This document shows, one piece after another, positions 8,050 to 19,928 of a DNA stretch of 64,000 nucleotides. Each line of letters starts with the position of its first letter. Position 1 is the stretch's first letter. This stretch comes from an uncultured Acidimicrobiales bacterium (lineage in GTDB: Bacteria > Actinomycetota > Acidimicrobiia > Acidimicrobiales > SHLQ01). Under the pieces are notes generated by a model. It was not told the DNA's origin, did no database searches, and saw only the letters and a program-made list of their open reading frames with translations. Location of the stretch: NCBI GenBank assembly GCA_938038785.1, contig CALHTB010000062.1:49471-113470 (forward strand), in the 5' to 3' direction. A program made the translations under genes and the position numbers.

Positions 8050-9327
8050 CTACGTTCCCTTGTAGTTCAAGATGGTCTCTAGACGGTGCTCGATTTTCAC
8101 GAGATCCTTCTGGTTGTCCATCACTTCTCCGATGTCCTTGTAGGCATCTGGGTGCTCGTCGAGTAGCGCCTGAGTGTTTTCGTTCCAGGCGATACCTTCC
8201 ATCCGCTCAGCAAGCGACTCTTCAGTCAGTTGCTTACGCGCCGCAGTACGCGAGAGGCGACGACCAGCACCGTGCGATGCCGATCGGTACGACTCGGGGT
8301 TACCGAGGCCGGACACGATGAACGAACCTGTCGCCATCGAGCCAGGGATGATGCCCCACTTACCGACCGAAGCGTCGATCGCTCCCTTTCGGGTGACCCA
8401 CATTTCGATTCCGTGGTGGTGTTCGCAGCTCGCGTAGTTGTGGTGGCATTGGATCTTCGCACCGTCTGTAACGTTCTGACCGTTCCGGCCAGCGACCGAC
8501 ATCTTCTTCTCCTGGCCAGCAGGGGTCGAGGACATTTCGTCACCAATCACGCGAAGGACCGCATCCATCATTTCGGCACGGTTCTCAAGTGCATAGTCCT
8601 GCGCCCAGAGCATTCCCTGGATGTAGTCCTCGAACTCTTCGGTCCCTTGGACGAAGTGCGCCAGATCCGGATCCTCGAGTGGGTGCTCGAGGGCTCGCTT
8701 CAGCGAGTTCTTGGCCTTGCCAATGTGTTGCTGAGCAAAGATGTTTCCAGGTCCACGCGAGCCCGAGTGCAGAACAACCCACACCTGATCGTCGTCGTCG
8801 ACGGTCAGCTCGATGAAGTGGTTTCCTCCACCGAGCGTTCCGAACTGCGACGCGATCTTCTTTGGGTTGAACTTGTCGGACTTCACGTTTGGCGCGTCAC
8901 GTACGAGACGATCGAGCACCTTGCTGTTCGCGAACTTCGTTCGCGAACCCGAGTTGCGGTCGCCTCGCTTTGGCTGACCCGATGGGACCGCCTTGGCGAT
9001 TCCGTCGTGAATCTTCGAGAGGTGCTCGTCGATTTGGTCGCGAGTGAACACGGTCTTCTGCGCCACCATTCCGCAACCGATGTCGACCCCAACCGCAGCT
9101 GGGATGATCGAGCCCTCGGTTGCTACGACCGACCCAACGGTTGCACCCATTCCGAGGTGCGCGTCAGGCATGAGCGCGAGTGGCTTATGCACGAAGGACA
9201 GGTTCGCTGTCCGATGCGCTTGGGCCATTGTCTTCTCATCGAGGTCGGTCGCCCACGAGAGGACGTCGCCAGTTCGAGTTGCTTGTGTTTCTGGTGTCGC
9301 AGAACGTTGTTCTGGTGTTGTAGTCAT
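8050..9327 (-). CDS. rtcB: RNA-splicing ligase RtcB
   Basis: A 425-residue tRNA/RNA ligase that joins 2',3'-cyclic phosphate ends to 5'-OH ends using GTP and Mn2+. All expected active-site elements are present: GVDIGCGM with Asp82 and Cys85, GGGNH with His170, LHSGSRG with His187, CHHNY with His296, and the guanylylated histidine in SHGAGRR (His352). The start at 9327 is fixed by a perfect AAGGAGGTG six bases upstream; the longer frame would run into the GNAT gene. No rtcA or rtcR is nearby. It is the last gene of the minus-strand series TROVE, GNAT, RtcB downstream of the tRNA array, which points to tRNA repair or splicing. Confidence 0.96.
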   Translation of the reverse strand: MTTTPEQRSATPETQATRTGDVLSWATDLDEKTMAQAHRTANLSFVHKPLALMPDAHLGMGATVGSVVATEGSIIPAAVGVDIGCGMVAQKTVFTRDQIDEHLSKIHDGIAKAVPSGQPKRGDRNSGSRTKFANSKVLDRLVRDAPNVKSDKFNPKKIASQFGTLGGGNHFIELTVDDDDQVWVVLHSGSRGPGNIFAQQHIGKAKNSLKRALEHPLEDPDLAHFVQGTEEFEDYIQGMLWAQDYALENRAEMMDAVLRVIGDEMSSTPAGQEKKMSVAGRNGQNVTDGAKIQCHHNYASCEHHHGIEMWVTRKGAIDASVGKWGIIPGSMATGSFIVSGLGNPESYRSASHGAGRRLSRTAARKQLTEESLAERMEGIAWNENTQALLDEHPDAYKDIGEVMDNQKDLVKIEHRLETILNYKGT

Positions 9328-9368
9328 TGCTGCACCTCCTTGGTGCGTGCTTTCTTGTTTCATCGTTG

Positions 9369-10043
9369 TCATGTGGTTGTTTGTGAGTCGAGACCCAGAG
9401 TTGAGAGGCATGGAGCCAAGCCTTCAATACTGATGTCGTCTTGTTGGATAGTTACCCACTGGTCTTGTTCCATCCGGTAGCGGATCGAGCGCTCAGCGAC
9501 ATCGTCGCCTCGAAGTTCGATCGAGGATCCGTTGGATTGATAGCCGAGCTTCTCGGTCACCCGCCGCGAGGCGAGATTGCTCTCGAACGCTTCGGTGTGA
9601 GCGACCTTGGTGCCAAGACCTTCGAAGAGGAGATGGAGCATGGCCCGTCTCATTTCGGTTCCGATGCCACGGCCTTGGTGCGATTGGGCCAACCACGAAC
9701 CAGTAGTCACGGCTTTCGTTTTGTGAAAGTCCTTCGCAAAGGCATCTTGGCTGCCCACGATCGTCCCATCGGCCACTACAGCAAAGGTGAGGTGCCAGGC
9801 GTCGGGAGTGATGGTTGACCTTGAACGCCAGTAGAACTGGGCCATCGAGGTTGATCGCTGGTTTGGCGGTTCAAGGCTCCACGAGGTCGAGAACGGACTC
9901 GACCCGGCTGGGTGAATACCGTCATCGGCCAGCGCAACGAGCGCCGGAATCATCTCGTCGGTTATGTAGGCGAGCGTGACTCGCGGCGTTCTGACCTTCA
10001 GCGCGAAGAACGGCCAGAGGTCACTCAAGCTTCTTGTGATCAT
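9369..10043 (-). CDS. GNAT acetyltransferase, RimJ/RimL-like
   Basis: A 224-residue acetyltransferase. The acetyl-CoA pyrophosphate loop is seen in SHQGRGIGTEMR (about residues 130-141) and the C-terminal NLASRRVTEKLGY motif is typical of RimJ/RimL-like enzymes that acetylate N-termini or small molecules. ATG 10043 is preferred because AAAGG lies eight bases upstream, whereas the ATG at 10058 has none. It sits between the Ro60-like gene and rtcB, 41 bases from rtcB. GNATs can also act on aminoacyl-tRNA (TacT family), but nothing in this sequence proves that role. Confidence 0.85.
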   Translation of the reverse strand: MITRSLSDLWPFFALKVRTPRVTLAYITDEMIPALVALADDGIHPAGSSPFSTSWSLEPPNQRSTSMAQFYWRSRSTITPDAWHLTFAVVADGTIVGSQDAFAKDFHKTKAVTTGSWLAQSHQGRGIGTEMRRAMLHLLFEGLGTKVAHTEAFESNLASRRVTEKLGYQSNGSSIELRGDDVAERSIRYRMEQDQWVTIQQDDISIEGLAPCLSTLGLDSQTTT

Positions 10044-10136
10044 TTGGTTGCCTTTCATGCGATCGGGATTGTGCTTGCGCGCCCAGCACCAGACGAACGC
10101 TTCGCGCTCATGGATGTCTGATGCTGGGCACTGGTA

Positions 10137-11714
10137 CTAGAACGGCCAGTCAGCGTTGCGGCTCGCCTCAAGGGTTTCCATGAGACGGAACGTTGCATCG
10201 CTGAAGCCAGCGAGTGTGTAGCGGCCACGTTGTCCGGCCGGAGTCGACCGAGGTCGGTATCCGGCAAGATCCACGGTGTAGATCACGGGTACGTGGCTGA
10301 TGTCAACTGCGTTGGCGTCGGCCATTTGGTCGTCGGTGAACATGACCACTCGATCGTGCTTGCGCGGATCGAAGTGGTCTCGGATAGCGGTGTGTCCGTA
10401 GGTTGCGTGTCCAACCTCACCGAGCATTCCGGCCACTTGGGTTACACGGCTCAGGGTCGACGCTTCCTTTCGGAAGCGAACGGCCTTGTTGGTGTGACCA
10501 AAGATCACGGTGTCACTGGAGCGTCCGCGACCCGCCGTGTCCGCCTGGGCGGACCGAGAAGTAGTCACGGCCGCCATCACAGCAGCAACTTCAACCCGAC
10601 GCATCGTCGAACGTGCAGCCACTGGGGCTTGCATCGACCCCGACGTGTCGATGACCACGAGGGTGCGATCGAGCGCCGGGATGTTCTGAGTTGTCAGGTC
10701 GAGTGTTGTGCCGAGAGCGTGCTTCCACGCATCCGATGGGGCGTTGGAGTACGCCGCCCACACTTGGTACGGGAACAGACGTGCCTTCGCCACTTCGTCT
10801 GGGTCGGTGATCTTTGCCAGAACCGTGTTGACCGAACGTCGACTAATGCCTTGCTCGTCGAAGTTACGGAGGTTACGGATGAGTGCCATGACACCCATGG
10901 TTGGGATTACCGATTCCCAGGCTTCAGCGTCCATGCCTCCCGGCAGCCAACCAGCCAGTCGTTCCCACGACGTTCCGGCCTTCGCCAGAGTGTCGGTGCC
11001 GTCGGCTCGGAGCATTGCTCGTCGCTCGTCGGCTGGGATGTTGGCTTGGGCTGCCGATGCAGCAAGTACCGGAAGCACCTTCGGATCGGCGACAGCATCG
11101 TTGTGGTGACGCTTATCGAGTAGCCACTTGAAGAGTTCGCTTTGCGTTGCATCGCGAGGCTTCGGGTGGGTCAGCTCGATGACGTCAGCCATTCGGATAC
11201 CGCGGCCGAGGCCGTCGTATCGAAGCGCCGATCGCTCGTTGTAGAGACGGATTGCGCCGTCAGCTACACCGCGCTTGACGGCCATCTTCATGGACCGTCC
11301 GTAGCGGCTGTGCCAGTAACCGATCATCTCGGCTGGCTCGTCGCCACGCTGGAGCACGCTGTTGACCACAGCTCGGCCGCTCTCGCCACCGGCAGCAACG
11401 TATTCGGCTGCCAGCATGATCGAGGCCGATCGGATCTTCAGTTCCTTGCGGAGGTATGGCGCGAGGCGGGCAACGAACTCGGGGTTCGATTCGGTCACGC
11501 GGTGTACGAGGTCGACGAAGCGGTCTTCACGCGCTTCGGCAGTTTCGTAGAACGTCGGCTCAGTGGCCATGTAGGTAGCGGCCATGAGGAAGAGCTCGGA
11601 TTCGAGCTCGGGTACATAGCCAACTGCGCCCTCATGGGTGCGGACACGGCCGCGACCGGTCTTCACCGGAGCGGTTGGTCGGATTCGAATTGTCTTGTTG
11701 GAAAACTTGGACAT
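10137..11714 (-). CDS. rsr: TROVE / vWA domain protein (bacterial Ro60, Rsr-like)
   Basis: A 525-residue RNA-binding protein. The TROVE domain (about residues 25-345) forms a HEAT-repeat ring that binds misfolded RNAs and Y RNAs in Ro60 and Rsr proteins. A C-terminal von Willebrand A domain follows, with an intact MIDAS: DTSGSM (356-361), a threonine in ATYGHT and FTDD (459-462). The start is set by AAAGGAGGG six bases before ATG 11714. It lies just downstream of a candidate Y RNA and upstream of rtcB on the same strand, the classical neighbourhood of bacterial RNA quality-control and repair operons. Confidence 0.95.
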   Translation of the reverse strand: MSKFSNKTIRIRPTAPVKTGRGRVRTHEGAVGYVPELESELFLMAATYMATEPTFYETAEAREDRFVDLVHRVTESNPEFVARLAPYLRKELKIRSASIMLAAEYVAAGGESGRAVVNSVLQRGDEPAEMIGYWHSRYGRSMKMAVKRGVADGAIRLYNERSALRYDGLGRGIRMADVIELTHPKPRDATQSELFKWLLDKRHHNDAVADPKVLPVLAASAAQANIPADERRAMLRADGTDTLAKAGTSWERLAGWLPGGMDAEAWESVIPTMGVMALIRNLRNFDEQGISRRSVNTVLAKITDPDEVAKARLFPYQVWAAYSNAPSDAWKHALGTTLDLTTQNIPALDRTLVVIDTSGSMQAPVAARSTMRRVEVAAVMAAVTTSRSAQADTAGRGRSSDTVIFGHTNKAVRFRKEASTLSRVTQVAGMLGEVGHATYGHTAIRDHFDPRKHDRVVMFTDDQMADANAVDISHVPVIYTVDLAGYRPRSTPAGQRGRYTLAGFSDATFRLMETLEASRNADWPF

Positions 11715-11933: not shown

Positions 11934-12052
11934 GCGAATCAGGGGACCAGGCGAGTGAGGATTACGCGTCGACCGCAGCCGACAACGTTCGGATTTGAAC
12001 CGAAGGCCTAAGCCTTTGCCAGAAGTAGCCTCACTACTCGCATCTGATTCGC
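11934..12052 (-). ncRNA. candidate Y RNA (YrlA-like) with tRNA-like head
   Basis: The minus-strand sequence closes with a perfect 9-bp stem (GCGAATCAG with CTGATTCGC). After an internal loop comes a second 10-bp helix, GCGA plus GTGAGG pairing with CCTCACTCGC, interrupted by a three-base GTA bulge on the 5' strand. Above it is a tRNA-like part: a hairpin AAGGC-TTAG-GCCTT, a perfect T-arm (TTCGG, loop TTCAAAT, CCGAA) and a third weak hairpin. No acceptor partner or anticodon arm can be drawn, so it is not a normal tRNA. A bulged terminal stem plus tRNA mimic is the known plan of bacterial Y RNAs, and the Ro60-like gene starts 219 bases downstream. Identity is inferred from structure and context. 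Confidence 0.62.
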
Positions 12053-12078: not shown

Positions 12079-12240
12079 AAACAACGGCGTCAGGCCTGAG
12101 AACCAATCGATCGGGCTGTATAACTGCTCTACCTCTGAGCTACAACCCCAAGAGCGGGGCTGGCAGGAATCGAACCTGCGACCTGTTCCTTATGAGGGAA
12201 GAAATCCCAATCATCACAGCAGGCCTGATGCCGTTGTTTG
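12079..12240 (-). tRNA. circularly permuted tRNA gene, anticodon CAT (Met or Ile2)
   Basis: On the minus strand the 3' half comes first: from 12198, CC, loop CTCATAA, GGAAC, AGGTC, T-arm GCAGG-TTCGATT-CCTGC and acceptor CAGCCCC ending at 12156, with G at 12155. After a five-base linker the 5' half follows: acceptor GGGGTTG (12149-12143), TA, D-arm GCTC-AGAGGTA-GAGC, A and GTT ending at 12122. Joining GTT to CC gives a complete cloverleaf: 7-bp acceptor with one G-U, 4-bp D stem, 5-bp anticodon stem GTTCC/GGAAC and 5-bp T stem. Neither half has an alternative partner. Flanks 12220-12239 and 12079-12098 are inverted repeats (19 of 20), and CCCGATC/GATTGGG adds an inner 7-bp helix, leaving six-base internal loops at both joining points. 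Confidence 0.75.
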
Positions 12241-12332: not shown

Positions 12333-12833
12333 TTACGACGGCTGAAGCCACGCTTCCCATCCGGGTCGCGCGGTCACGAGGACGATCGCACCCTTTGGCG
12401 CGACTGGGGCCTTCTTGAGGGTCCAGCCGAGCTGGTCGAGGGTGCGGTCGCCCTTGGCCCCGTTGTGCTCTTGGCACATCAGGACACAGTTTTCCCACGA
12501 TGAGCTACCGCCACGCGAGCGTGGGATGACGTGGTCGACGGTGGAGCCGCGTTCGTCGCATTGCGCGACCTGGCATTCGCGGTTGTCTCGTGCGTTGAGG
12601 CCCTTCTTCGAGAAGCGTGGGGTCTCGGTCGTCCGCATTCCCGCGAAGGACACCATTTGCATCAGACGTACAACGTTCGGATAGGGAAACTCCGTTCCGC
12701 CAGCCGAGCGGACCGTCCGGTCGCCGTCCTGTTCAACAAGCTCAGCGCGGCCGGTAAGCATCAACGTCATTGCTCGCTTCCACGAGACGATTGTCAGCGG
12801 TTCATAGGAGGCGTTCAGTAGTAGTACGGACAT
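12333..12833 (-). CDS. HNH endonuclease family protein
   Basis: A 166-residue protein with the N-terminal LLNASYEPL segment common to a widespread actinobacterial HNH family and a C-terminal HNH nuclease core with zinc ligands: CQVAQC, the catalytic DHVIPRSRGG, the ENCVLMC knuckle and QEHN. The start has a perfect AAAGGAGG seven bases upstream. It lies inside the tRNA array, on the same strand, between tRNA-Ser(GCT) and the permuted tRNA. HNH proteins cut DNA or, in some cases, RNA; the target is unknown. Confidence 0.9.
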   Translation of the reverse strand: MSVLLLNASYEPLTIVSWKRAMTLMLTGRAELVEQDGDRTVRSAGGTEFPYPNVVRLMQMVSFAGMRTTETPRFSKKGLNARDNRECQVAQCDERGSTVDHVIPRSRGGSSSWENCVLMCQEHNGAKGDRTLDQLGWTLKKAPVAPKGAIVLVTARPGWEAWLQPS

Positions 12834-13375: not shown

Positions 13376-13391
13376 CCGGCTGGGCTCATTG

Positions 13392-13473
13392 CGGAAGGAG
13401 TGGGAGTCGAACCCACAAGGCTGTTGCCGGCCGGTTAGCAACCAGCTGCCGTCACCAATCGGCTTGCCCTTCC
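13392..13473 (-). tRNA. tRNA-Ser(GCT)
   Basis: Acceptor GGAAGGG pairs with TCCTTCC, the D stem is GCC/GGC, the anticodon stem GCTGG/CCGGC with loop TTGCTAA, the variable arm is long as expected for Ser, and the T-arm is GTGGG-TTCGACT-CCCAC. Discriminator G; CCA is not encoded. Confidence 0.93.
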
Positions 13474-13563
13474 AGAAGCTGTCGCCTTCGGGTCTCGCTG
13501 GCACTGCCGTTCTCTTGCATTGGCGGAGCGAAGCTCGCAGAGCGATCATGTTGACTCAGTCGG

Positions 13564-13586
13564 TTGTCGAGCGGAAGTCTCGACAA
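13564..13586. repeat. CGGAAGT hairpin, copy 4
   Basis: The 8-bp stem TTGTCGAG/CTCGACAA encloses CGGAAGT. About 40 bases before it is a variant of the composite core (GCGGAGCGAAGCTCGC). Confidence 0.75.
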
Positions 13587-13593
13587 GTGACAG

Positions 13594-13667
13594 TGCCCAG
13601 TGCTGGATTCGAACCGGCGACCTTCTGTATGTAACACAGCTGCTCTAAGCCACTGAGCTAACCGGGC
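13594..13667 (-). tRNA. tRNA-Val(TAC)
   Basis: Acceptor GCCCGGT/ACTGGGC, D-arm GCTC...GAGC, anticodon loop GTTACAT, T loop TTCGAAT in a stem CCGG/CCAG-like. Pair 27-43 is G-A. Discriminator A. Confidence 0.9.
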
Positions 13668-13672
13668 AAGGC

Positions 13673-13720
13673 GAATATCTGGCCAAACCGATCAAGGTTG
13701 AACGGTTTGGGCAGATATTC
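13673..13720. repeat. 18-bp inverted repeat between tRNA-Val and tRNA-Ile
   Basis: GAATATCTGGCCAAACCG pairs with CGGTTTGGGCAGATATTC, with one mismatch, around a 12-base loop. There is no T-run, so a simple terminator is unlikely. Its length is similar to that of the 20-base repeat around the permuted tRNA. Confidence 0.7.
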
Positions 13721-13731
13721 GAGACAAGTTG

Positions 13732-13806
13732 TGAGGACGGATGGATTCGAACCATCGATCTCCGCTGTATCAGAGCGGCGCTCTACCCAGACTGAGCCAC
13801 GACCTC
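13732..13806 (-). tRNA. tRNA-Ile(GAT)
   Basis: Acceptor GAGGTCG/CGTCCTC with one T-T mismatch, D-arm GCTC...GAGC, anticodon stem CCGCT/AGCGG with loop CTGATAC, T-arm GATGG-TTCGAAT-CCATC. Discriminator A. Confidence 0.92.
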
Positions 13807-13811
13807 AAGAG

Positions 13812-13883
13812 AGTGGATAGAGGGGATCGAACCCTCGCCTTCTGGGTGGAAGCCAGGTGCTCTGCCAATTGAGCTACATCCAC
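13812..13883 (-). tRNA. tRNA-Gly(TCC)
   Basis: Acceptor GTGGATG/TATCCAC, D-arm GCTC...GAGC, anticodon loop CTTCCAC in CCTGG/CCAGA (27-43 C-A mismatch), T-arm GAGGG-TTCGATC-CCCTC. Discriminator T, as expected for Gly. Confidence 0.92.
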
Positions 13884-13937
13884 GTCGTTCCTCAGGCCTG
13901 GCGGCCTTCGGCACTTACCGCCTCTTCTCGCCTTGCT

Positions 13938-13967
13938 CGAGACGCTCTGGCGGTGGAGAGCGTCTCG
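13938..13967. repeat. 11-bp perfect hairpin between tRNA-Gly and tRNA-Met
   Basis: CGAGACGCTCT pairs with AGAGCGTCTCG around the loop GGCGGTGG. No T-run on either strand. It may protect or separate RNA segments during tRNA processing. Confidence 0.65.
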
Positions 13968-13972
13968 TTGGT

Positions 13973-14047
13973 AGCGGGAGCGAGAGTTGAACTCGCACTC
14001 ATGTACTGGTTATGAGCCAGTTGCAGCACCACTACTGCGTGTCCCGC
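13973..14047 (-). tRNA. tRNA-Met(CAT), slightly irregular
   Basis: Anticodon stem ACTGG/CCAGT with loop CTCATAA is perfect, as is the T-arm GCGAG-TTCAACT-CTCGC. The acceptor stem pairs only six bases (GCGGGA/TCCCGC) and the variable region is eight bases long. The GGG/CCC anticodon stem of initiators is absent, so elongator Met or Ile2 is likelier. Confidence 0.82.
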
Positions 14048-14107
14048 GTTGGGGGTTGTGTCGACAGGAGAGCGGAGCTCGCGGAACGAACATGTCGGTC
14101 TCGTCGG

Positions 14108-14130
14108 TTGTCGATCGGAAGTGTCGACAA
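14108..14130. repeat. CGGAAGT hairpin, copy 5, with composite core
   Basis: Stem TTGTCGAT/GTCGACAA (one T-G pair) around CGGAAGT. It is preceded by GAGCGGAGCTCGCGGAACG at about 14071 and by a bare TGTCGACA at 14058-14065 that looks like a collapsed first hairpin. Confidence 0.75.
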
Positions 14131-14137
14131 GCTATTG

Positions 14138-14211
14138 CGCCATCGATGGGACTCGAACCCACATCCTTCTCCTCGACAGGGAGCTGCTCCAACCAATTGA
14201 GCTACGACGGC
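14138..14211 (-). tRNA. tRNA-Asp(GTC)
   Basis: Acceptor GCCGTCG/CGATGGC, D-arm GCTC...GAGC, anticodon loop CTGTCGA in GCTCC/GGAGA (27-43 G-A mismatch), T loop TTCGAGT. Discriminator G, correct for Asp. Confidence 0.92.
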
Positions 14212-14240
14212 AAGAGGTAGTTCTGCTTGCAGAACTTCGG

Positions 14241-14312
14241 TGGGAACGCTCGGATTCGAACCGAGGACGCCGGGGTAAGAGCCCGGAACGTTTCCTGCTA
14301 CGCCACATTCCC
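14241..14312 (-). tRNA. tRNA-Lys(CTT)
   Basis: Acceptor GGGAATG/CGTTCCC, anticodon stem CCGGG/CCCGG with loop CTCTTAC, T-arm CTCGG-TTCGAAT-CCGAG, discriminator A. Confidence 0.92.
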
Positions 14313-14329
14313 GTGGAGTTGATTAGATG

Positions 14330-14411
14330 AGCAACAGGACGGATTCGAACCGTCGTGGGCAGAGCCGTGCGCTTTGCAAACGCATCCCTTCGTCCTCTCG
14401 GGCACTGTTGC
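14330..14411 (-). tRNA. tRNA with anticodon GCA (Cys) and long variable arm
   Basis: Acceptor GCAACAG/CTGTTGC is perfect, the D stem is CCC/GGG as in Leu/Ser/Cys tRNAs, and the anticodon stem is TGCGT/GCGCA with loop TTGCAAA. The variable region has 13 bases and can form a GGC/GCC stem, so it is class II, unlike normal tRNA-Cys. Discriminator T (U73) is the Cys identity base. Confidence 0.88.
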
Positions 14412-14417
14412 TTGAGG

Positions 14418-14492
14418 TGCCCCCGGTGGGATTCGAACCCACGATCATCGGATTAAAAGTCCGCTGCCGTAACCAGGCTTGGCCACAGGGGC
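14418..14492 (-). tRNA. tRNA-Lys(TTT)
   Basis: Acceptor GCCCCTG/CGGGGGC, D stem GCC/GGC, anticodon loop CTTTTAA in GCGGA/TCCGA (27-43 mismatch), T-arm GTGGG-TTCGAAT-CCCAC, discriminator A. Confidence 0.92.
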
Positions 14493-14505
14493 AGAGTTTG
14501 AAAAG

Positions 14506-14573
14506 CACCGCGACAGAGAATCGAGCTCCACAAGCCGAGGTTTGGAATCTCAACACCGCCCAGCGGTCACGGC
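14506..14573 (-). tRNA. tRNA-Trp(CCA)-like, reduced D-arm
   Basis: Acceptor GCCGTGA/TCGCGGT pairs fully with two wobbles and the anticodon loop TTCCAAA fits Trp. The D region is only CCGC-TGG-GCGG, the anticodon stem has an A-C pair next to the loop, and the T loop is CTCGATT. Total about 68 bases. It may be a degenerate or highly modified tRNA. Discriminator G. Confidence 0.62.
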
Positions 14574-14577
14574 AAAG

Positions 14578-14649
14578 TATCGGAAGGTGGATTCGAACCA
14601 CCATCTGCGGGGCCAAAACCCGCTGTCCTGGCCTTTGGACGATTCCGAC
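14578..14649 (-). tRNA. tRNA-Gln(TTG)
   Basis: Acceptor GTCGGAA/TTCCGAT, D stem GTCC/GGAC, anticodon stem GCGGG/CCCGC with loop TTTTGGC, T-arm GGTGG-TTCGAAT-CCACC, discriminator A. Confidence 0.9.
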
Positions 14650-14677
14650 GAGATGTTGCTTCCGCTACTGTCTGGCG

Positions 14678-16090
14678 ATGAACTCTGATGTGATTCAGAA
14701 CTCGGCCGTCGAGCTCGCTGGGGCCATTGCCTCGGGTGAACTGTCTTCAGTCGAAGTGGTATCGGCTCACCTGGACCGAATCGATGACGTGAACAGCGAG
14801 GTCAATGCCATCGTGTCGATGCGCTCTCGTGACGAGATACTCGCCGATGCCAAAGCTGCCGATGCTGGCGGTGGCGGTGGCCCGTTGCACGGACTTCCGA
14901 TTGCGGTGAAAGACCTTGAGGATGTTGCTGGCCTTCCGACCCGGGCTGGTTCGCTCGTGTCGAGCGATCAGCCGGTCGCCGCCGATGGCCATGTGGCCTC
15001 GAAGCTTCGTCGCGCCGGTGCGATCATCATCGGCAAGACCAATACCCCCGAGTTCGGCACTGGCTGCCATACCTTCAACGAGGTCTTCGGGGTGACTCGC
15101 AATCCGTGGAATCTTGGCCGGATCTCGGGAGGGAGCAGCGGGGGAGCGGCAGCAGCGCTTTCGGCTCGGATGTTGCCGATCGCGGATGGCAGCGACCTCG
15201 GCGGTTCGCTCCGGAACCCGGCATCAATGTGCAGCGTGGTGGGTATGCGCCCGAGCGTTGGCCGGGTTGCCGACCCGCACGCGACGACGACGCACCTGCG
15301 GCTCGGGCTAAGTGGACCAATGGGTCGTACGGTGGCCGATACCGCCTTGCTGATGTCGGCAATTGCCGGGCCTGATGTTCGAGACCCGTGGTCGTTGCCA
15401 GAAGACGGCTCGACGTTTACCTCGTCGCTGCCAACGACGACGGACGCCAAGGTGGCCTGGGGCGGAAACCTTGGCCTCCTCGAATGCGATGCTGAGGTGT
15501 TGGCCATTGGTGAAGCGGCCGCACGCACGGTCGAAACCGTCGGCGGCTCATTCGCCATCGATAGTCCCAACATGGAACATGCCGAGTTCGTCTTTCGGGT
15601 GCTTCGTGGGCTTGGGTATGCACGGAACGTCGCAATAATTCCCGATGAGCTGTATCCGAAGTTGAAGGGGACAGTTCGAGAGAACGTCGAGTATGGCCGA
15701 ACGCTCAAGACTGAAGACTTGTTCTTGGCCGAGAGCCGCAAGGCCGATCTGCATCGGACGATGACTGCCTTCTTCGATGAATACGACGTGCTCGCCATTC
15801 CGGCAGCGCAGGTTCCAGCGTTTCCGGTCGAGACCGAATTCCTGACCGAGATCAACGGCGTTGAGATGCCTGACTACCTCGGCTGGATGATGGCGGCTTG
15901 CATCATTACGCCAACCGGGTGCCCGGCAATCTGCATCCCTGCTGGCTTCACCAGTGAAGGTCTGCCAGTAGGTCTGCAGCTCGTCGCCCGAGTAGGACAG
16001 GATCACAAGCTCCTCGAGATCGCCTCAGCGATGGAAGCCGCAAACCCGCAACATCATCTTGTTCCGCCGCTGTCGCAATCTGTCGGCTAG
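14678..16090 (+). CDS. amidase-signature family hydrolase
   Basis: A 470-residue cytoplasmic amidase that hydrolyses C-N amide bonds with a Ser-cisSer-Lys triad. Lys78 lies in GLPIAVKDLEDV, the cis-serine in GGSSGG (152-156) and the nucleophile Ser177 in GSDLGGSLR. ATG 14678 starts 29 bases after the 5' end of tRNA-Gln, which is divergent; the longer open frame would cross four tRNA genes and is rejected. It is a plus-strand insertion in a minus-strand tRNA array. It is not GatA by context (no gatB/gatC). Substrate unknown. Confidence 0.88.
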   Translation: MNSDVIQNSAVELAGAIASGELSSVEVVSAHLDRIDDVNSEVNAIVSMRSRDEILADAKAADAGGGGGPLHGLPIAVKDLEDVAGLPTRAGSLVSSDQPVAADGHVASKLRRAGAIIIGKTNTPEFGTGCHTFNEVFGVTRNPWNLGRISGGSSGGAAAALSARMLPIADGSDLGGSLRNPASMCSVVGMRPSVGRVADPHATTTHLRLGLSGPMGRTVADTALLMSAIAGPDVRDPWSLPEDGSTFTSSLPTTTDAKVAWGGNLGLLECDAEVLAIGEAAARTVETVGGSFAIDSPNMEHAEFVFRVLRGLGYARNVAIIPDELYPKLKGTVRENVEYGRTLKTEDLFLAESRKADLHRTMTAFFDEYDVLAIPAAQVPAFPVETEFLTEINGVEMPDYLGWMMAACIITPTGCPAICIPAGFTSEGLPVGLQLVARVGQDHKLLEIASAMEAANPQHHLVPPLSQSVG

Positions 16091-16096
16091 CGCCGG

Positions 16097-16119
16097 TTGT
16101 CGGGCGGCAGCCCCGACAA
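16097..16119. repeat. CGGCAGC hairpin, copy 6
   Basis: The 8-bp stem TTGTCGGG/CCCGACAA encloses CGGCAGC, immediately after the amidase stop. First hairpin of a complete composite element. Confidence 0.75.
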
Positions 16120-16169
16120 GTTGCTGTTCGGGAGCGGAGCTCGCGTAGCGAACATGTCGGTTTCCGCGG

Positions 16170-16192
16170 TTGTCGGGCGGCAGTCCCGACAA
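16170..16192. repeat. CGGCAGT hairpin, copy 7
   Basis: Stem TTGTCGGG/CCCGACAA, loop CGGCAGT. Second hairpin of the element; the core GAGCGGAGCTCGCGTAGCG lies between at about 16132. Confidence 0.75.
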
Positions 16193-16200
16193 ATAGTTGG

Positions 16201-16289
16201 GGTGGATGACCGGGATCGAACCGGCGAGTCCCGTGAGGGACACCAGGGTCACAGCCTGGCTCGACAAACCAACAGTCGACTCAAACACC
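16201..16289 (-). tRNA. tRNA-His(GTG) with long variable arm
   Basis: Anticodon stem CCAGG/CCTGG with loop CTGTGAC, T-arm GCCGG-TTCGATC-CCGGT, D-arm TCGAC/GTCGA. An extra G precedes the acceptor (G-1) and the discriminator is C, the His identity pair. The variable region is 17 bases with a GTCCC/GGGAC stem, which is class II and not normal for His. The acceptor stem has two mismatches. Confidence 0.85.
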
Positions 16290-16295
16290 ATGTCC

Positions 16296-16410
16296 TTCAG
16301 CGGTCGCAATCCGAGCCTGGCGGGCTCTCGATGCTGCCGCTCGTTCCTCGCTAAGACTGCCGGCCAGAGGCCGTGTCCGCTCGAACCGGCTTCGCAGCTT
16401 CGAGCTCACG
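16296..16410. repeat. R2 repeat, copy 1
   Basis: A 115-base segment beginning TTCAGCGGTCGCAAT and ending CGCAGCTTCGAGCTCACG, about 85% alike to 18318-18430. It contains the GAGCC-TGGC-GGGCTC hairpin, also found in variant form in R1. No reading frame is conserved. Confidence 0.65.
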
Positions 16411-16427
16411 GTTGTCCCACTTGGTTG

Positions 16428-16500
16428 AGCCTTGGGCGGGATTCGAACCCGCGACCTGCGGGGTAGAAACCCGCTGCTCTTCCAACTGAGCTACCAGGGC
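16428..16500 (-). tRNA. tRNA-Arg(TCT)
   Basis: Acceptor GCCCTGG/CCAAGGC with one mismatch, D-arm GCTC...GAGC, anticodon stem GCGGG/CCCGC with loop TTTCTAC, T-arm GCGGG-TTCGAAT-CCCGC, discriminator T. Confidence 0.92.
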
Positions 16501-16503
16501 CAG

Positions 16504-16585
16504 TGCTTCCCGTGGGAGTCGAACCCACATGTCTTGCGACCACAGGGTTTGAACCTGCTGCGTATGCCAGTTCCGCCAGAGAAGC
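16504..16585 (-). tRNA. tRNA-Leu(CAA)
   Basis: Acceptor GCTTCTC/GGGAAGC, anticodon loop TTCAAAC in GCAGG/CCTGT, long variable arm GGTCGCAAGACAT, T-arm GTGGG-TTCGACT-CCCAC, discriminator A as needed for Leu. Confidence 0.93.
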
Positions 16586-16590
16586 CAGAG

Positions 16591-16663
16591 TGGTCTAGGG
16601 AGGATTCGAACCTCCGACGCGCTGCGTTTCAGACAGCCGCTCTTCCAACTGAGCTACCAAACC
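16591..16663 (-). tRNA. tRNA-Phe(GAA)
   Basis: Acceptor GGTTTGG/CTAGACC, D-arm GCTC...GAGC, anticodon stem GCTGT/GCAGC with loop CTGAAAC, T-arm GGAGG-TTCGAAT-CCTCC, discriminator A. Confidence 0.93.
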
Positions 16664-16672
16664 AAATAGGAG

Positions 16673-16746
16673 AGCCCCGCGTCGGATTCGAACCGACAAC
16701 CTCTCGCTTACAAGGCGAGTGCAACAGCCGTTGTTGCTTCCGGGGC
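16673..16746 (-). tRNA. tRNA-Thr(TGT)
   Basis: Acceptor GCCCCGG/GCGGGGC with one G-G, D-arm GCAAC/GTTGC, anticodon stem CTCGC/GCGAG with loop CTTGTAA, T-arm GTCGG-TTCGAAT-CCGAC, discriminator T. Confidence 0.92.
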
Positions 16747-16751
16747 AGATG

Positions 16752-16823
16752 TGGAGAAGGAGGGATTCGAACCCTCAACCGTCCGCGTGCAAGGCGGGTG
16801 CTCTTCCATTGAGCTACAACCCC
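16752..16823 (-). tRNA. tRNA-Ala(TGC)
   Basis: Anticodon loop CTTGCAC, T-arm GAGGG-TTCGAAT-CCCTC, D-arm GCTC...GAGC. The acceptor GGGGTTG/CTTCTCC has two T-T mismatches but keeps the G3-U70 pair that marks tRNA-Ala. Discriminator A. Confidence 0.92.
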
Positions 16824-16834
16824 AGAATTGTGCG

Positions 16835-16908
16835 TATCCCCGGTAGGACTCGAACCTACAATCGCCGCCTTCGTAGGGCGGTGCCCTATCCAATTGGGCC
16901 ACGGAGAC
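16835..16908 (-). tRNA. tRNA-Arg(ACG)
   Basis: Acceptor GTCTCCG/CGGGGAT, D-arm GCCC/GGGC, anticodon stem CCGCC/GGCGG with loop CTACGAA (A34, so it would need TadA), T-arm GTAGG-TTCGAGT-CCTAC, discriminator A. Confidence 0.93.
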
Positions 16909-17051
16909 GTATCGACTCAGCCCTGGCGGGCTTCCTCGAACTCGAGTTTGTCGCTGGCGCTCCAAACGGCGGTTGGTCCGAGTGCTTGAGGGGAGGGAGC
17001 GGAGCGGACGACCATGTCGGGGGTCGCGGATCTCGACCGGAAGTGTCGAGA
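16909..17051. repeat. R1 repeat, copy 2
   Basis: The second copy of the segment at 11763-11903. On the minus strand it lies directly upstream of tRNA-Arg(ACG). The AGCCC-TGGC-GGGCT hairpin in it corresponds to AGCCCT-GA-AGGGCT in copy 1. Confidence 0.65.
17031..17051. repeat. CGGAAGT hairpin, copy 8
   Basis: Stem TCTCGAC/GTCGAGA with loop CGGAAGT, the end of R1 copy 2. Confidence 0.75.
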
Positions 17052-17292
17052 ATAGATAGTGGGAGGTAGGACTATGGATTACCTACAAGAGTGGTGTCGC
17101 TCCATTCGAAGGACCACTCAACCTTGCGTTCGTCTGTCGACGAATATTGCAACTCCACGTCGCCGCGAGTCACAACAGCACAACCTGCACAAGTCGGATT
17201 ACGGCCACGTACAAGCCGTTGTTCTCCGAACTCCCAGCGTCGGGCCGTCGCCCTTCGCCGTTCTGTTTGATGTTCGAGGCATCAAGTGTTTG
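17052..17292. other. 240-base stretch in the array with no assigned gene
   Basis: No tRNA could be folded here. Two local hairpins are visible: GTAGG/CCTAC near 17066-17086 and GAGTGGT/ACCACTC near 17090-17120, the latter enclosing a T-loop-like ATTCGAAGG. It may hold a decayed tRNA or a structured RNA. Confidence 0.4.
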
Positions 17293-17374
17293 TACTTCCC
17301 GTGGGAGTCGAACCCACAAGTCTTGCGACCACAGGGTCTAAGCCTGCTGCGTTTTCCAGTTTCGCCAGGGAAGC
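17293..17374 (-). tRNA. tRNA-Leu(TAG)
   Basis: Acceptor GCTTCCC/GGGAAGT, anticodon loop CTTAGAC in GCAGG/CCTGT, long variable arm, T-arm GTGGG-TTCGACT-CCCAC, discriminator A. It is closely related to tRNA-Leu(CAA), so probably a duplication with an anticodon change. Confidence 0.93.
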
Positions 17375-17390
17375 GTGTAATGCTCTATCC

Positions 17391-18131
17391 ATGGACAGAG
17401 CAAGAGAATTTCAACGCCGGATGGTCGAGTCCATGGGATGCGAACCATCGATCATTGATGCGGTAGGGGTGACCGTTAAAGGTCACCCGGACCGAGCCGA
17501 GAGTCGCGTGACCGCCGGATATCTGCTCGGGAAGCACTTCGTCATCACGTGCGATCCAGCTGTCGAATCGATGCTCCAGGCTGCAGCATCAGGGATGGAA
17601 CCGACTCTTGAAGGTTGGACCGAGGTGGCATTCGCGACGGGCGGTGAATTTCTTGGCACCGGACGGATGCAGTTGCTGTCGGATCCCGGCGGGCTCAAGG
17701 CGCCAGTCGTGGCGTCCGGCTACGAGCTTCGGACAATTCGATCTGAAGAGCCCGATACTCGGTCGATGGTTGAACGGCTTGTCGAGGTCTCCGATGATGA
17801 CGACCTCGACGAGGCCGAGATCGACCTGGATGACCTTGACGAAGTAATCCACGTCGCCGTCGGTACGGACGGCGAGATCGCCGCATACGCATCGGCACGA
17901 CAATTCGATCTGGTGAGCGGCTACGGAGACATTGGCGTGCTCACCCATGCGGATCATCGCGGTAAGGGTCTCGGTGTTGCCGCTGTCAGCGCGCTGTGCG
18001 AGCGCCTCATCGGTGAGGGGCTAGAACCGCTCTACCGTTGTGACGAAGAGAACGCTGCGTCCATGCGCCTGTCGGAGTCGATGGGCTTCGTGCCGGCCAC
18101 CCGATTGGTTGGCTACCGCTTCGAGGCGTAA
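17391..18131 (+). CDS. GNAT acetyltransferase inside the tRNA array
   Basis: A 246-residue protein with a divergent N-terminal half and a C-terminal GNAT fold: GDIGVLTHADHRGKGLGVAAVSAL provides the acetyl-CoA loop and the EENAASMRLSESMGF stretch the C-terminal helix. An acidic stretch (DDDDLDEAEIDLDDLDE) lies near residues 140-156. ATG 17391 is preferred because the longer frame would begin inside tRNA-Leu(TAG). It is on the plus strand, opposite to the tRNAs, eight bases from tRNA-Glu at its 3' end. Substrate unknown; modification of aminoacyl-tRNA is possible but unproven. Confidence 0.82.
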   Translation: MDRAREFQRRMVESMGCEPSIIDAVGVTVKGHPDRAESRVTAGYLLGKHFVITCDPAVESMLQAAASGMEPTLEGWTEVAFATGGEFLGTGRMQLLSDPGGLKAPVVASGYELRTIRSEEPDTRSMVERLVEVSDDDDLDEAEIDLDDLDEVIHVAVGTDGEIAAYASARQFDLVSGYGDIGVLTHADHRGKGLGVAAVSALCERLIGEGLEPLYRCDEENAASMRLSESMGFVPATRLVGYRFEA

Positions 18132-18139
18132 GCCAGTTG

Positions 18140-18211
18140 CATCCCGACAGAGAATCGAACTCTGTTTTCCGGATTGAAAGCCCAGGGTCTTAACCAGTAG
18201 ACGATCGGGAC
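18140..18211 (-). tRNA. tRNA-Glu(TTC)
   Basis: Acceptor GTCCCGA/TCGGGAT, D stem GTCT/AGAC, anticodon loop CTTTCAA in CTGGG/TCCGG (two wobbles), T-arm CAGAG-TTCGATT-CTCTG, discriminator G. Confidence 0.92.
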
Positions 18212-18238
18212 GAGGTGTGGCTCGAGGAACCACGCTTG

Positions 18239-18312
18239 CTGTGAGGGGAGGATTCGAACCCCCGACGCGATGGGTAACAACCACCCGCTCTTACCATCTG
18301 AGCTACCCCACA
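18239..18312 (-). tRNA. tRNA-Asn(GTT)
   Basis: Acceptor TGTGGGG/CCTCACA, D-arm GCTC...GAGC, anticodon stem GGTGG/CCATC with loop TTGTTAC, T-arm GGGGG-TTCGAAT-CCTCC, discriminator G. Confidence 0.92.
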
Positions 18313-18317
18313 AAATA

Positions 18318-18430
18318 TTCAGCGGTCGCAATTCGTCGCTGCGCTCCTCGATGCTGCCGCTCGTTCCTCGCTAAGACTGCTGGCCGGAGGCCGTGTCCGT
18401 CCGAACCGGCTTCGCAGCTTCGAGCTCACG
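18318..18430. repeat. R2 repeat, copy 2
   Basis: The second copy of 16296-16410. A third start of the unit (TTCAGCGGTCGC) appears at about 18433 and breaks off. Confidence 0.65.
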
Positions 18431-18469
18431 TGTTCAGCGGTCGCTTTTCCGAGCCCTGGTGGGATTGCT

Positions 18470-18512
18470 GCTCTCACTGACAGCCCCGACATTCGACGCT
18501 GTCAGTGAGAGC
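18470..18512. repeat. 14-bp perfect inverted repeat
   Basis: GCTCTCACTGACAG pairs with CTGTCAGTGAGAGC around a 15-base loop. It lies between tRNA-Asn and the PadR gene; no T-run follows on the plus strand. Confidence 0.65.
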
Positions 18513-18598
18513 CCTTTCCGCCAAGGTTTCGGTCGATGTGCGTAACAGTCGTGTCGGCAGCAACCCTATATCGATTAGCATTTTCACAATTGGATTTA

Positions 18599-18610
18599 GG
18601 GTCTAAACCC
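18599..18610. promoter_or_regulatory. palindrome upstream of padR, candidate operator
   Basis: GGGT-CTAA-ACCC, extendable to a TTAGGGT...ACCCTTA-like repeat, lies 30 bases before the PadR start in an AT-rich promoter-like stretch. PadR regulators usually bind such palindromes at their own promoter; this is inference. Confidence 0.45.
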
Positions 18611-18640
18611 TTAGGTGCTGTTGCGAACTACACTCGCCGG

Positions 18641-18940
18641 ATGGTTCAGAGACTTACGAAGCCAATGACTCGAGTGCTCATTCTGTTGCTCGAAGCTGGC
18701 GATGACGGTTGCTACGGCTTGGAACTCATCGAGAAGGCCGGGCTTGCGGCAGGCACGGTGTACCCGATGCTCACCCGGCTAGAGGAGATCCACTGGGTCG
18801 AGAGTCGTTGGGAAGATGTCGATCCCTCGTCGGTAGGTCGTCCGGCTCGGCGGTACTACGAACTCACTGCGACCGGTCGGGTGCAAGCCATTGCCAAGCT
18901 CGACGGCAACACCGGTGGCGCCGAGGCGTTTAGCATCTGA
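18641..18940 (+). CDS. PadR-family transcriptional regulator
   Basis: A 99-residue winged-helix repressor with only the N-terminal DNA-binding domain of PadR (subfamily-2 size). GCYGLELIEKAGLAAGTVYPMLTRLEE is the recognition part and GRPARRYYELTATGR the wing. ATG 18641 fits the family start; the open frame extends further upstream without support. It converges with a membrane-protein gene, two bases between their stop codons, a common PadR pairing. Confidence 0.88.
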   Translation: MVQRLTKPMTRVLILLLEAGDDGCYGLELIEKAGLAAGTVYPMLTRLEEIHWVESRWEDVDPSSVGRPARRYYELTATGRVQAIAKLDGNTGGAEAFSI

Positions 18941-18941
18941 G

Positions 18942-19706
18942 CTATACGCCGGCTTCGAGCTCCAGGTCTTCGGCGAAAACCAGCGGTCGATCCACGATTG
19001 AGTAGCAGGCCCAGGCCAGCACAAGAGCTGGGCCACCATAGACAAGAACCGTAAGCCTGGATGCTCCGTCGAGGTCGGTCGCGTTCAGTGCAGCGATGCA
19101 CACAAGCACGATTGATGCTGGCGCCAGCACGTACAGCGACGCGAGTTGCATTCTGCGGTGATGACTGCCGGCGTAAGCAGAGCCGACCAGCATCGAAAGC
19201 CCGATAAGAACCGCCACGTTTGGCAGTGTCACATCGATTCGATGACTGGTAAGCGGGCTGAAGTCCTCAAAGCGGATCGCAGCTGTTCCGATGGCGCTGC
19301 CGAACAACACCATTGCCAAGCCGATCCGAGAGCCAGTTGAATCGAACAAGCGCCCATCGTGGGACCAGAGGCCAGCTGCCACAAAGAGAATTCCGACGCC
19401 GATCGCGAATTGGGCGCCAAGGGTGATCCATCTGCCGTCGACAATGGCCCAGGTTGCAAGAACAGCCGTGGGGACGAGGGCGCTGAGAGACGCTGCGCTT
19501 AGCTCGACGTAGGCGCTTGAGCTGTTGGTCCGAAACGTACGGGTCATTTGGGGCGCAGCTCGAGTAAGGGAGAGTCCGAACATAAATGCTGACCAGGTGC
19601 CGCGTGTTTGCTGGAGGGCCGTCATTTCGGCTGTCCACTCGGCGTGAAAACGTGTCCGGCTATCTGGCGGAAGCAATGCGGCAGCAAGTCTTATCAACAT
19701 GGACAC
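18942..19706 (-). CDS. multi-pass membrane protein paired with PadR
   Basis: A 254-residue protein. The soluble N-terminal helix (LLPPDSRTRFHAEWTAEM) resembles the short cytoplasmic prefix found in PadR-associated permease-like proteins. About six hydrophobic segments follow between residues 65 and 235. It starts at GTG 19706 or ATG 19700; neither has a clear ribosome-binding site. Function unknown; PadR partner by position. Confidence 0.68.
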   Translation of the reverse strand: MSMLIRLAAALLPPDSRTRFHAEWTAEMTALQQTRGTWSAFMFGLSLTRAAPQMTRTFRTNSSSAYVELSAASLSALVPTAVLATWAIVDGRWITLGAQFAIGVGILFVAAGLWSHDGRLFDSTGSRIGLAMVLFGSAIGTAAIRFEDFSPLTSHRIDVTLPNVAVLIGLSMLVGSAYAGSHHRRMQLASLYVLAPASIVLVCIAALNATDLDGASRLTVLVYGGPALVLAWACYSIVDRPLVFAEDLELEAGV

Positions 19707-19723
19707 GTCGCAGAGACTAGCAC

Positions 19724-19751
19724 CTCAATACCCCACTATTGGGGTATTGAG
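19724..19751. repeat. 12-bp perfect hairpin beside tRNA-Arg(TCG)
   Basis: CTCAATACCCCA pairs with TGGGGTATTGAG around CTAT. On the minus strand it lies just after tRNA-Arg and before the membrane-protein start. It could stop or process tRNA transcripts, or be an operator. Confidence 0.6.
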
Positions 19752-19757
19752 TGGTAG

Positions 19758-19829
19758 AGCCCTCGGTAGGAGTCGGACCTACGGCCTCCTGGTTCGAAGC
19801 CAGGCGCTCTTCCACTGAGCTACGAAGGC
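19758..19829 (-). tRNA. tRNA-Arg(TCG)
   Basis: Acceptor GCCTTCG/CGAGGGC, D-arm GCTC...GAGC, anticodon stem CCTGG/CCAGG with loop CTTCGAA. The T loop is TCCGACT, so the usual T55 is C. Discriminator T. Confidence 0.9.
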
Positions 19830-19853
19830 GGGAAGTCTCCATTGGACGAATTG

Positions 19854-19928
19854 TCTGAACGGTAGGGTTCGAACCTACGAGATATCCGGTTTCCAAAACC
19901 GGTGACGAGCCAGCACGTCCTCGTTCAG
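19854..19928 (-). tRNA. tRNA-Pro(TGG)
   Basis: Acceptor CTGAACG/CGTTCAG, D stem GACG/CGTC, anticodon stem CCGGT/ACCGG with loop TTTGGAA, T-arm GTAGG-TTCGAAC-CCTAC, discriminator A. This is the first gene of the array in the direction of transcription. Confidence 0.92.

Follow-up and report, generated by a model that had tools for sequence, protein, structure and literature searches.

A YrlA-type Y RNA candidate, predicted to copy a whole tRNA including the anticodon arm, next to a Ro60 gene

Results

Judging from its position and its Rfam match, the element at 12240-12079(-) of the window (the whole 64,000-nucleotide stretch of DNA analysed here) most likely encodes a YrlA-type Y RNA, a noncoding RNA whose likely partner is the Ro60 protein of the adjacent gene. 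We propose that this Y RNA copies a whole tRNA including the anticodon arm and likely acts as a bait for anticodon nucleases, and we give this reading a probability of roughly 0.55; the identity of the element is well supported, and the bait role is what we infer from the variation of the loop among relatives. The first-pass annotation had described the place as a circularly permuted tRNA gene. Its permuted geometry and its split anticodon stem stand, and compensating changes preserve them in relatives, but the proposed cut-and-sealed mature tRNA found no support.

Predicted fold of the element

As a single RNA, 12240-12079(-) is predicted to form an outer stem, an inner helix and an enclosed permuted tRNA-like domain, with the following parts.

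12079..12240, minus strand: whole element, probable anticodon-armed YrlA-type Y RNA (Rfam match, fold, and conservation 5' of Ro60 in relatives)
12220..12239, minus strand: outer stem, 5' arm, presumed to bind Ro60 (MFE pairing with 12098-12079)
12079..12098, minus strand: outer stem, 3' arm (predicted fold)
12206..12212, minus strand: inner helix GATTGGG, pairing with 12115-12109 (sequence and predicted fold)
12109..12115, minus strand: inner helix CCCGATC, partner of 12212-12206 (sequence and predicted fold)
12187..12199, minus strand: anticodon-arm hairpin, TCC 12199-12197, loop CTCATAA 12196-12190, GGA 12189-12187
12185..12186, minus strand: positions 42-43, the 3' strand of the two outermost anticodon-stem pairs, which are long-range and involve 12124-12123 (covariation)
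12163..12179, minus strand: T-arm (sequence and YrlA alignment)
12143..12162, minus strand: acceptor stem CAGCCCC/GGGGTTG with a 6-nt closing loop at 12155-12150 (sequence, Rfam alignment and fold)
12126..12140, minus strand: D-arm (sequence and YrlA alignment)
12123..12124, minus strand: positions 27-28, the 5' strand of the two outermost anticodon-stem pairs, right after the D-arm (covariation)

The fold has an MFE of -72 kcal/mol (z -5.55) and was matched in stability by 0 of 200 shuffled sequences, and on these statistics a chance inverted repeat was rejected as an explanation. The 20-base inverted repeat with 19 matches that had been noted before was recovered at 12239-12220 / 12098-12079 as 19 predicted pairs plus one mismatch, and the inner helix, likewise noted, was recovered at 12212-12206 / 12115-12109 with one G-U pair; this helix shows one-sided changes in loci L032-L034. 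On the minus strand the 3' half (12198-12156) does lie upstream of the 5' half (12149-12122), and the joined halves give a cloverleaf that ARAGORN calls tRNA-Met(cat), with a 5-bp anticodon stem, a 7-bp acceptor stem and an anticodon-like CAT at 12194-12192. The accompanying statement that neither half alone has a partner did not hold: the predicted fold has a local helix between GGAA and the TTCC that directly precedes the loop, so that a local hairpin could account for most of the anticodon stem and long-range pairing is needed only for its outer two or three pairs. The tRNA in the element would thus be circularly permuted, running from the anticodon loop through the T-arm and the loop-closed acceptor stem to the D-arm. 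The Ro60 stem is predicted to interrupt the anticodon stem in its 5' strand, between positions 28 and 29. The strand leaving the D-arm would therefore make the outer pairs 27-43 and 28-42, and the strand arriving from the Ro60 stem would make the three inner ones.

Gene neighbourhood

The element belongs to a minus-strand series (HNH - Y RNA - second Y-like RNA - Ro60 - GNAT - RtcB) beside an array of 22 tRNAs. The next gene downstream, overlooked in the first-pass annotation, is the Ro60/TROVE gene, whose phage relatives are annotated as 'Ro-like RNA binding protein'; the presence of rtcB in the same series, which had been pointed out, was borne out by Pfam.

12333..12833, minus strand: HNH endonuclease, upstream of the Y RNA (Pfam)
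11938..12047, minus strand: second Y-RNA-like unit, core GATGCG..GGCTACTTC, with a T-arm-like hairpin only (fold of 12060-11930, z -3.47)
10137..11714, minus strand: Ro60 orthologue with TROVE domain, first ATG MSKFS (Pfam PF05731, E 2.3e-16)
9369..10058, minus strand: GNAT acetyltransferase between Ro60 and rtcB (Pfam)
8050..9411, minus strand: RtcB RNA ligase, the true start of which may lie inside the ORF (Pfam PF01139, E 3.4e-105)
13391..19928, minus strand: array of 22 ordinary tRNA genes (ARAGORN)

The second unit, 12047-11938(-), sits between the first unit and Ro60 and has no D-arm; by eye, a similar core was found upstream of Ro60 in L039 and L041. An HNH endonuclease also lies upstream of Ro60 in L036-L039 and L041. 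RtcB was found within a few kb around Ro60 in 6 of 15 named loci, and within the same distance it was absent from the phage or virus loci and the same-phylum genomes searched. A Ro60 match was obtained in 4 of 19 genomes of the family, the source genome included, and in none of the 10 genomes with a completeness of 90% or more; the Ro60 / Y RNA series is accessory within the family.

The tRNA array of the window also holds a manA RNA (RF01745, 77.3 bits) at 17056-17257(-). Streptomyces phage BRock has a weaker manA match (49.7 bits, below the gathering score) flanked by tRNAs at L052 5079-5242.

Probable identity as a YrlA-type Y RNA

According to the available portions of two papers (PMC8394870, PMC7790460), YrlA consists of a large stem formed by both ends and a domain resembling the D, T and acceptor arms, is bound by Rsr/Ro60, and in some bacteria is encoded with rtcBA. 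The element shares several of these traits: a Ro60/TROVE gene adjoins it, as in relatives; its 5' and 3' ends are predicted to form a long stem with the inner helix added; and T-arm, closed acceptor stem and D-arm follow one another in that order in the Rfam alignment. The T-arm and acceptor stem show two-sided changes across relatives, and the D-stem is invariant. The Rfam YrlA model (RF02553) matches 12187-12121 with 38.5 bits (E 5.6e-7), which does not reach the gathering score of 69 bits, a threshold set by curators and no biological trait. Eleven other loci gave YrlA matches of 31.5-43.9 bits, again below this threshold whether or not the anticodon arm is present, and the anticodon-armed units L121, L094 and L044 match the full model with 39-43 bits. 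Since an anticodon arm is present and covaries, compared with none in the described domain, we file the element as a YrlA variant.

Survey of relatives

Related units were collected with R1, a covariance model built from 5 units with the anticodon region left unpaired, whose letters favour TAA loops. R1 was searched against 113 sources after removal of identical sequences: the 15 named loci (mostly titled as uncultured Acidimicrobiales or other Actinomycetota), 8 phage records, the best 80 of 380 viral contigs, and genomes of the phylum. The best 150 of 219 R1 hits were aligned together with 62 from a second R1 search, giving 201 distinct hits; adjacent ordinary tRNAs in arrays also match R1, and 48 hits without the core motif TNCTTC or a T-arm were dropped, which left 153 units. 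Core-motif units occur in 96 of the 113 sources, and 68 of these 96 have units with an anticodon arm (class I). Units without it (class II) are closer to the textbook YrlA and lie upstream of Ro60 as well. Among the named loci, 11 of 15 carry one or two permuted units upstream of Ro60 (L036-L038, L040, L042-L047, L050). Permuted units by Ro60 genes were also found in viral contigs and in Streptomyces, Gordonia, Xanthomonas and Brevundimonas phages, and class I units were seen by eye upstream of the Ro60-like genes of Xanthomonas phage Olaya and Brevundimonas phage Gurke. In the searched stretch of Thermus phage phiLo, R1 found no unit. Within the phylum, 14 of 396 genomes gave any match, and the seven strong ones all belong to one other genus.

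Several single loci were peculiar. By eye, the second tandem units at L046 427, L047 2899 and L045 1620 have a GACC-GNAA-GGTC hairpin in place of the anticodon arm. The Ro60 frame of the metagenome contig L050 (5001-6558) holds one stop codon, and the record of L043, titled Rhodobacteraceae, encodes a Ro60 75% identical to that of the window and is perhaps a mis-binned contig. In Streptomyces phage Kela, an annotated RNA ligase (L058 2229-2981) directly precedes the Ro-like gene.

The anticodon stem is local inside and long-range outside

A local 3-bp stem with a 7-nt loop was found in 86 of the 153 units, compared with a mean of 27.2 (sd 4.4, maximum 37) in shuffled sequences. Among the same 153 units, loops of 4, 5, 6 and 8 nt showed no excess over shuffles; 9-nt loops did (69 vs 19.9), as expected from the same stem read one pair outward, and so did 10-nt loops (32 vs 14.0), for which we have no explanation.

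In the long-range pairs, the two bases that immediately precede the variable region are matched with the two bases separated from the end of the D-arm by a single nucleotide. Both were formed in 70 of 75 class I units; 6 of the 86 armed units (without U33 and without both outer pairs) had been dropped before this count, and with these six as failures it becomes 70 of 81. A search of relatives for compensating changes had been suggested earlier; among units less than 80% alike, 53 of 58 keep both pairs, compared with a mean of 21.4 (sd 2.9, maximum 32) after shuffling of partners and with 2, 23 and 9 of 58 when the partners were slid along. It had also been asked whether the two halves vary in relatives without keeping their pairing; the pairing is kept, but the identity of the anticodon is not.

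For covariation, we selected units in which U33 and the local stem are present, the D-arm is standard and the variable region is 5 nt long. These requirements left 41 units, and those with a 20-nt interval, 29 in all, went into a MAFFT alignment; helix 1 is at 100% in these rows by construction, and the long-range helix served only as a tie-breaker. Long-range pairs are formed in 29 of 29 rows, with two-sided changes at both (7 and 3 rows), and 11 of the remaining 12 qualifying units keep them, L052 being the exception. The covariation score of the five anticodon-stem pairs was 0.560 in the 29 rows and 0.139 after shuffling; two of the five covariation measures were not extreme against shuffles (two-sided-change pairs 48/500, pair types 34/500). 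RNAalifold alone draws the outer positions as local U-G pairs, which are possible in many units, but the units in which the two bases are CG, GC, TG or AC do not fit local U-G pairing and keep the long-range pairs. A purely local anticodon stem was dropped as a model when, with more relatives, the two outer pairs proved long-range. In loci L036 and L037, both CAT and the exact GTTCC/GGAAC pairing are lost. From this comparison of sequences, we take the split, permuted anticodon stem to be genuine.

The anticodon loop is tRNA-like, and its anticodon varies

U33 is present in 78 of the 86 armed units. G37 accompanies G36 in 14 of 15 units and occurs in 0 of the 65 others (Fisher 1e-14, which is overstated because the sequences are related), and this link is looser in 230 ordinary tRNAs of the same loci, where G37 is found in 24 of 57 with G36 and in 14 of 173 others. 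Moreover, 17 of 37 distinct loops are identical to the loop of one of these 230 tRNAs, compared with 8.1 (sd 2.1, maximum 15) after shuffling of columns. By these measures, we judge the anticodon loop to be truly tRNA-like.

At the same time, the anticodon is not constant. Of the 28 triplets parsed, a few seem to have been read one base off, and 25 different triplets are left in the 73 units that have U33 and a purine at position 37. Among near relatives, CAT is shared by the window and L038, CGA is found in L036 and L037, and CCG, CTT, GAT and CCT elsewhere. Since the anticodon differs from relative to relative, the element is likely a nuclease bait and not a working tRNA. The 12 units with GCT (Ser) have variable regions of 4-5 nt, whereas the five ordinary tRNA-Ser(GCT) of the same loci have a long one. 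Of the 73 class I units scored, 58 close the acceptor stem with a loop of 3-5 nt, which is of UNCG or GNRA type in 20; in the window, this loop has 6 nt. In a D-arm isotype test, the mean rank of the unit's own isotype was 8.25 of 19 (shuffled 8.88, sd 0.39), so that no clear link between D-arm and anticodon emerges from the sequences, with a slight lean toward one; two units with Glu anticodons have D-arms ending in AGGAC, an ending that we take to be Glu-type, which hints at a few units whose mimicry goes further than the anticodon arm. ARAGORN called no tRNA at the element in genome order, with the halves unjoined, and the predicted folds place a local hairpin, and no bulge-helix-bulge, at the joint. 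The genome has ordinary tRNA-Met(cat) genes, both within the array and on a different contig. Overall, the element is most likely not a working decoding tRNA.

tRNA annotations at Y RNA units

Thirty-nine ARAGORN calls overlap core-motif R1 hits, a number that includes some duplicate loci and one doubtful call (L081 5798-5886). The records of four phages (LuckySocke, GiJojo, VanLee and Gurke) have tRNA annotations on top of Y RNA units; the units of LuckySocke and GiJojo have a longer insert and were left out of class I. Such phage annotations on Y RNA units 5' of Ro60 are found at L053 2774-2847 (tRNA-Ser(gct)), L057 2688-2762 (tRNA-Arg(cct)), L055 2629-2700 (tRNA-Arg(tct)) and L157 2269-2343 (tRNA-Ser). 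Anticodon-armed Y RNAs would explain this class of likely false 'tRNA' annotations, which bears on studies that count phage tRNAs or interpret their anticodon loops.

Discussion

If the element is transcribed, the bait reading can be put into a simple scheme. The 5' and 3' ends would pair into the long stem, which would hold Ro60 and protect the RNA. Anticodon nucleases set free by phage attack or stress would then bind or cut the loop of the Y RNA, and real tRNAs would be spared; a full anticodon arm would make a better bait than a plain YrlA, and differing anticodons on different units would match differing nucleases. RtcB, which is encoded nearby in some cellular arrays, could reseal the cut RNA, although its presence in only some loci means that resealing would not be general. 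In the accessible sections of PMC7790460, the tRNA-like domain of Salmonella YrlA is suggested to be a competitive inhibitor of such a nuclease, although the RNA is reported not to be cut by the nuclease active there. The available parts of PMC10264068 and PMC11555353 describe anticodon nucleases as a host weapon against phages, which answer with tRNAs and ligases. With a mimicry that reaches the anticodon and varies beside different Ro60 genes, the purpose of tRNA mimicry by bacterial Y RNAs becomes testable, in particular the question of whether the loop decides which nuclease is blocked.

The evidence for a YrlA-type identity (YrlA match and TROVE neighbour) serves equally well a possible, though in our estimate doubtful, alternative in which the anticodon arm completes a docking surface that tethers tRNA-handling proteins (RtcB, modification enzymes, PNPase) to Ro60, the loop being kept tRNA-like so that such proteins bind. 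U36 followed by A37 is the setting for t6A modification, and this combination is found in 48 of 80 units, compared with 84 of 230 ordinary tRNAs; the skew may come partly from the letters of R1, which favour TAA, or may reflect a role in base modification instead of baiting. In addition, rtcB lies in some of these loci, and the accessible text of PMC8394870 states that DusA and TruB use YrlA as a substrate and that YrlA tethers PNPase to Rsr. However, pure docking predicts neither the many different anticodons nor a G37 that follows G36, and class II units manage without the arm.

Beyond the single element, the bait reading can be extended to a wider and more speculative proposal, which we hold only tentatively: phages and mobile tRNA arrays may carry widespread, overlooked Y RNAs that resemble a tRNA in full and whose anticodon arms can be exchanged, acting as Ro60-held, re-sealable baits whose repertoire tracks the anticodon nucleases of the host.

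We consider it improbable that the tRNA-derived domain now only gates or stabilises Ro60 and that its varied anticodons are drift that followed repeated recombination with array tRNAs. Many units do lie in or beside tRNA arrays, and the loops shared with ordinary tRNAs of these loci (17 of 37) would fit such an origin, but two-sided changes keep the pairing and G37 follows G36, both of which drift would erode. Finally, it is very improbable that this is a genuine circularly permuted tRNA gene whose transcript would be cleaved where the anticodon stem is joined, closed by RtcB, opened in the acceptor loop and aminoacylated as a tRNA(CAT): the ARAGORN call on the joined halves, the conserved anticodon-stem pairs and the nearby RtcB speak for it, but the YrlA match and Ro60 context, relatives reading CGA, CCG, CTT, GAT or CCT at the anticodon, GCT units without the Ser variable arm, the 3-5 nt acceptor loops (58 of 73), folds in which no bulge-helix-bulge is seen, the ordinary tRNA-Met(cat) genes, and related units upstream of Ro60 that lack the arm or have a GNRA-type hairpin instead all speak against it.

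Comparison with known systems

The Y RNA candidate can be compared with four known systems. Like the permuted two-piece tmRNA, it has a permuted tRNA-like domain, occurs in bacteria and gives weak matches to the corresponding Rfam models, but it has a Ro60 context and both D- and anticodon arms, and its scores are far below the thresholds (18.1 bits for tmRNA_permuted, gathering score 47; 22.6 bits for cyano_tmRNA, gathering score 70), so that a permuted tmRNA was rejected. Like the permuted tRNA genes of algae and archaea, it has the 3' half first and gives a complete cloverleaf if joined; unlike those genes, as far as they are set out in the available part of PMC3978253, no bulge-helix-bulge was seen at the joint here, the anticodon changes between units and most acceptor loops are very short. 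With the phage tRNAs that counter anticodon nucleases, as presented in the accessible portions of PMC10264068 and PMC11555353, it shares the setting of phages and tRNA arrays and the central place of the anticodon loop; those tRNAs are taken as working, whereas the units here are linked to Ro60 and several look unchargeable, such as GCT units without the variable arm.

The closest system is the YrlA of Salmonella and other bacteria, with which the units share the end stem, the permuted order of T-arm, acceptor stem and D-arm, the Ro60 neighbour and sometimes a nearby RtcB. The Rfam YrlA consensus has no hairpin at the place of the anticodon arm, and the available part of PMC8394870 lists only D, T and acceptor arms. 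Among the literature matches listed, no title or abstract opening names an anticodon arm in Y RNAs, a weak indication, as the main Y RNA papers lie outside the search. To the YrlA plan, the units described here add an anticodon arm, a 7-nt loop and a variable anticodon.
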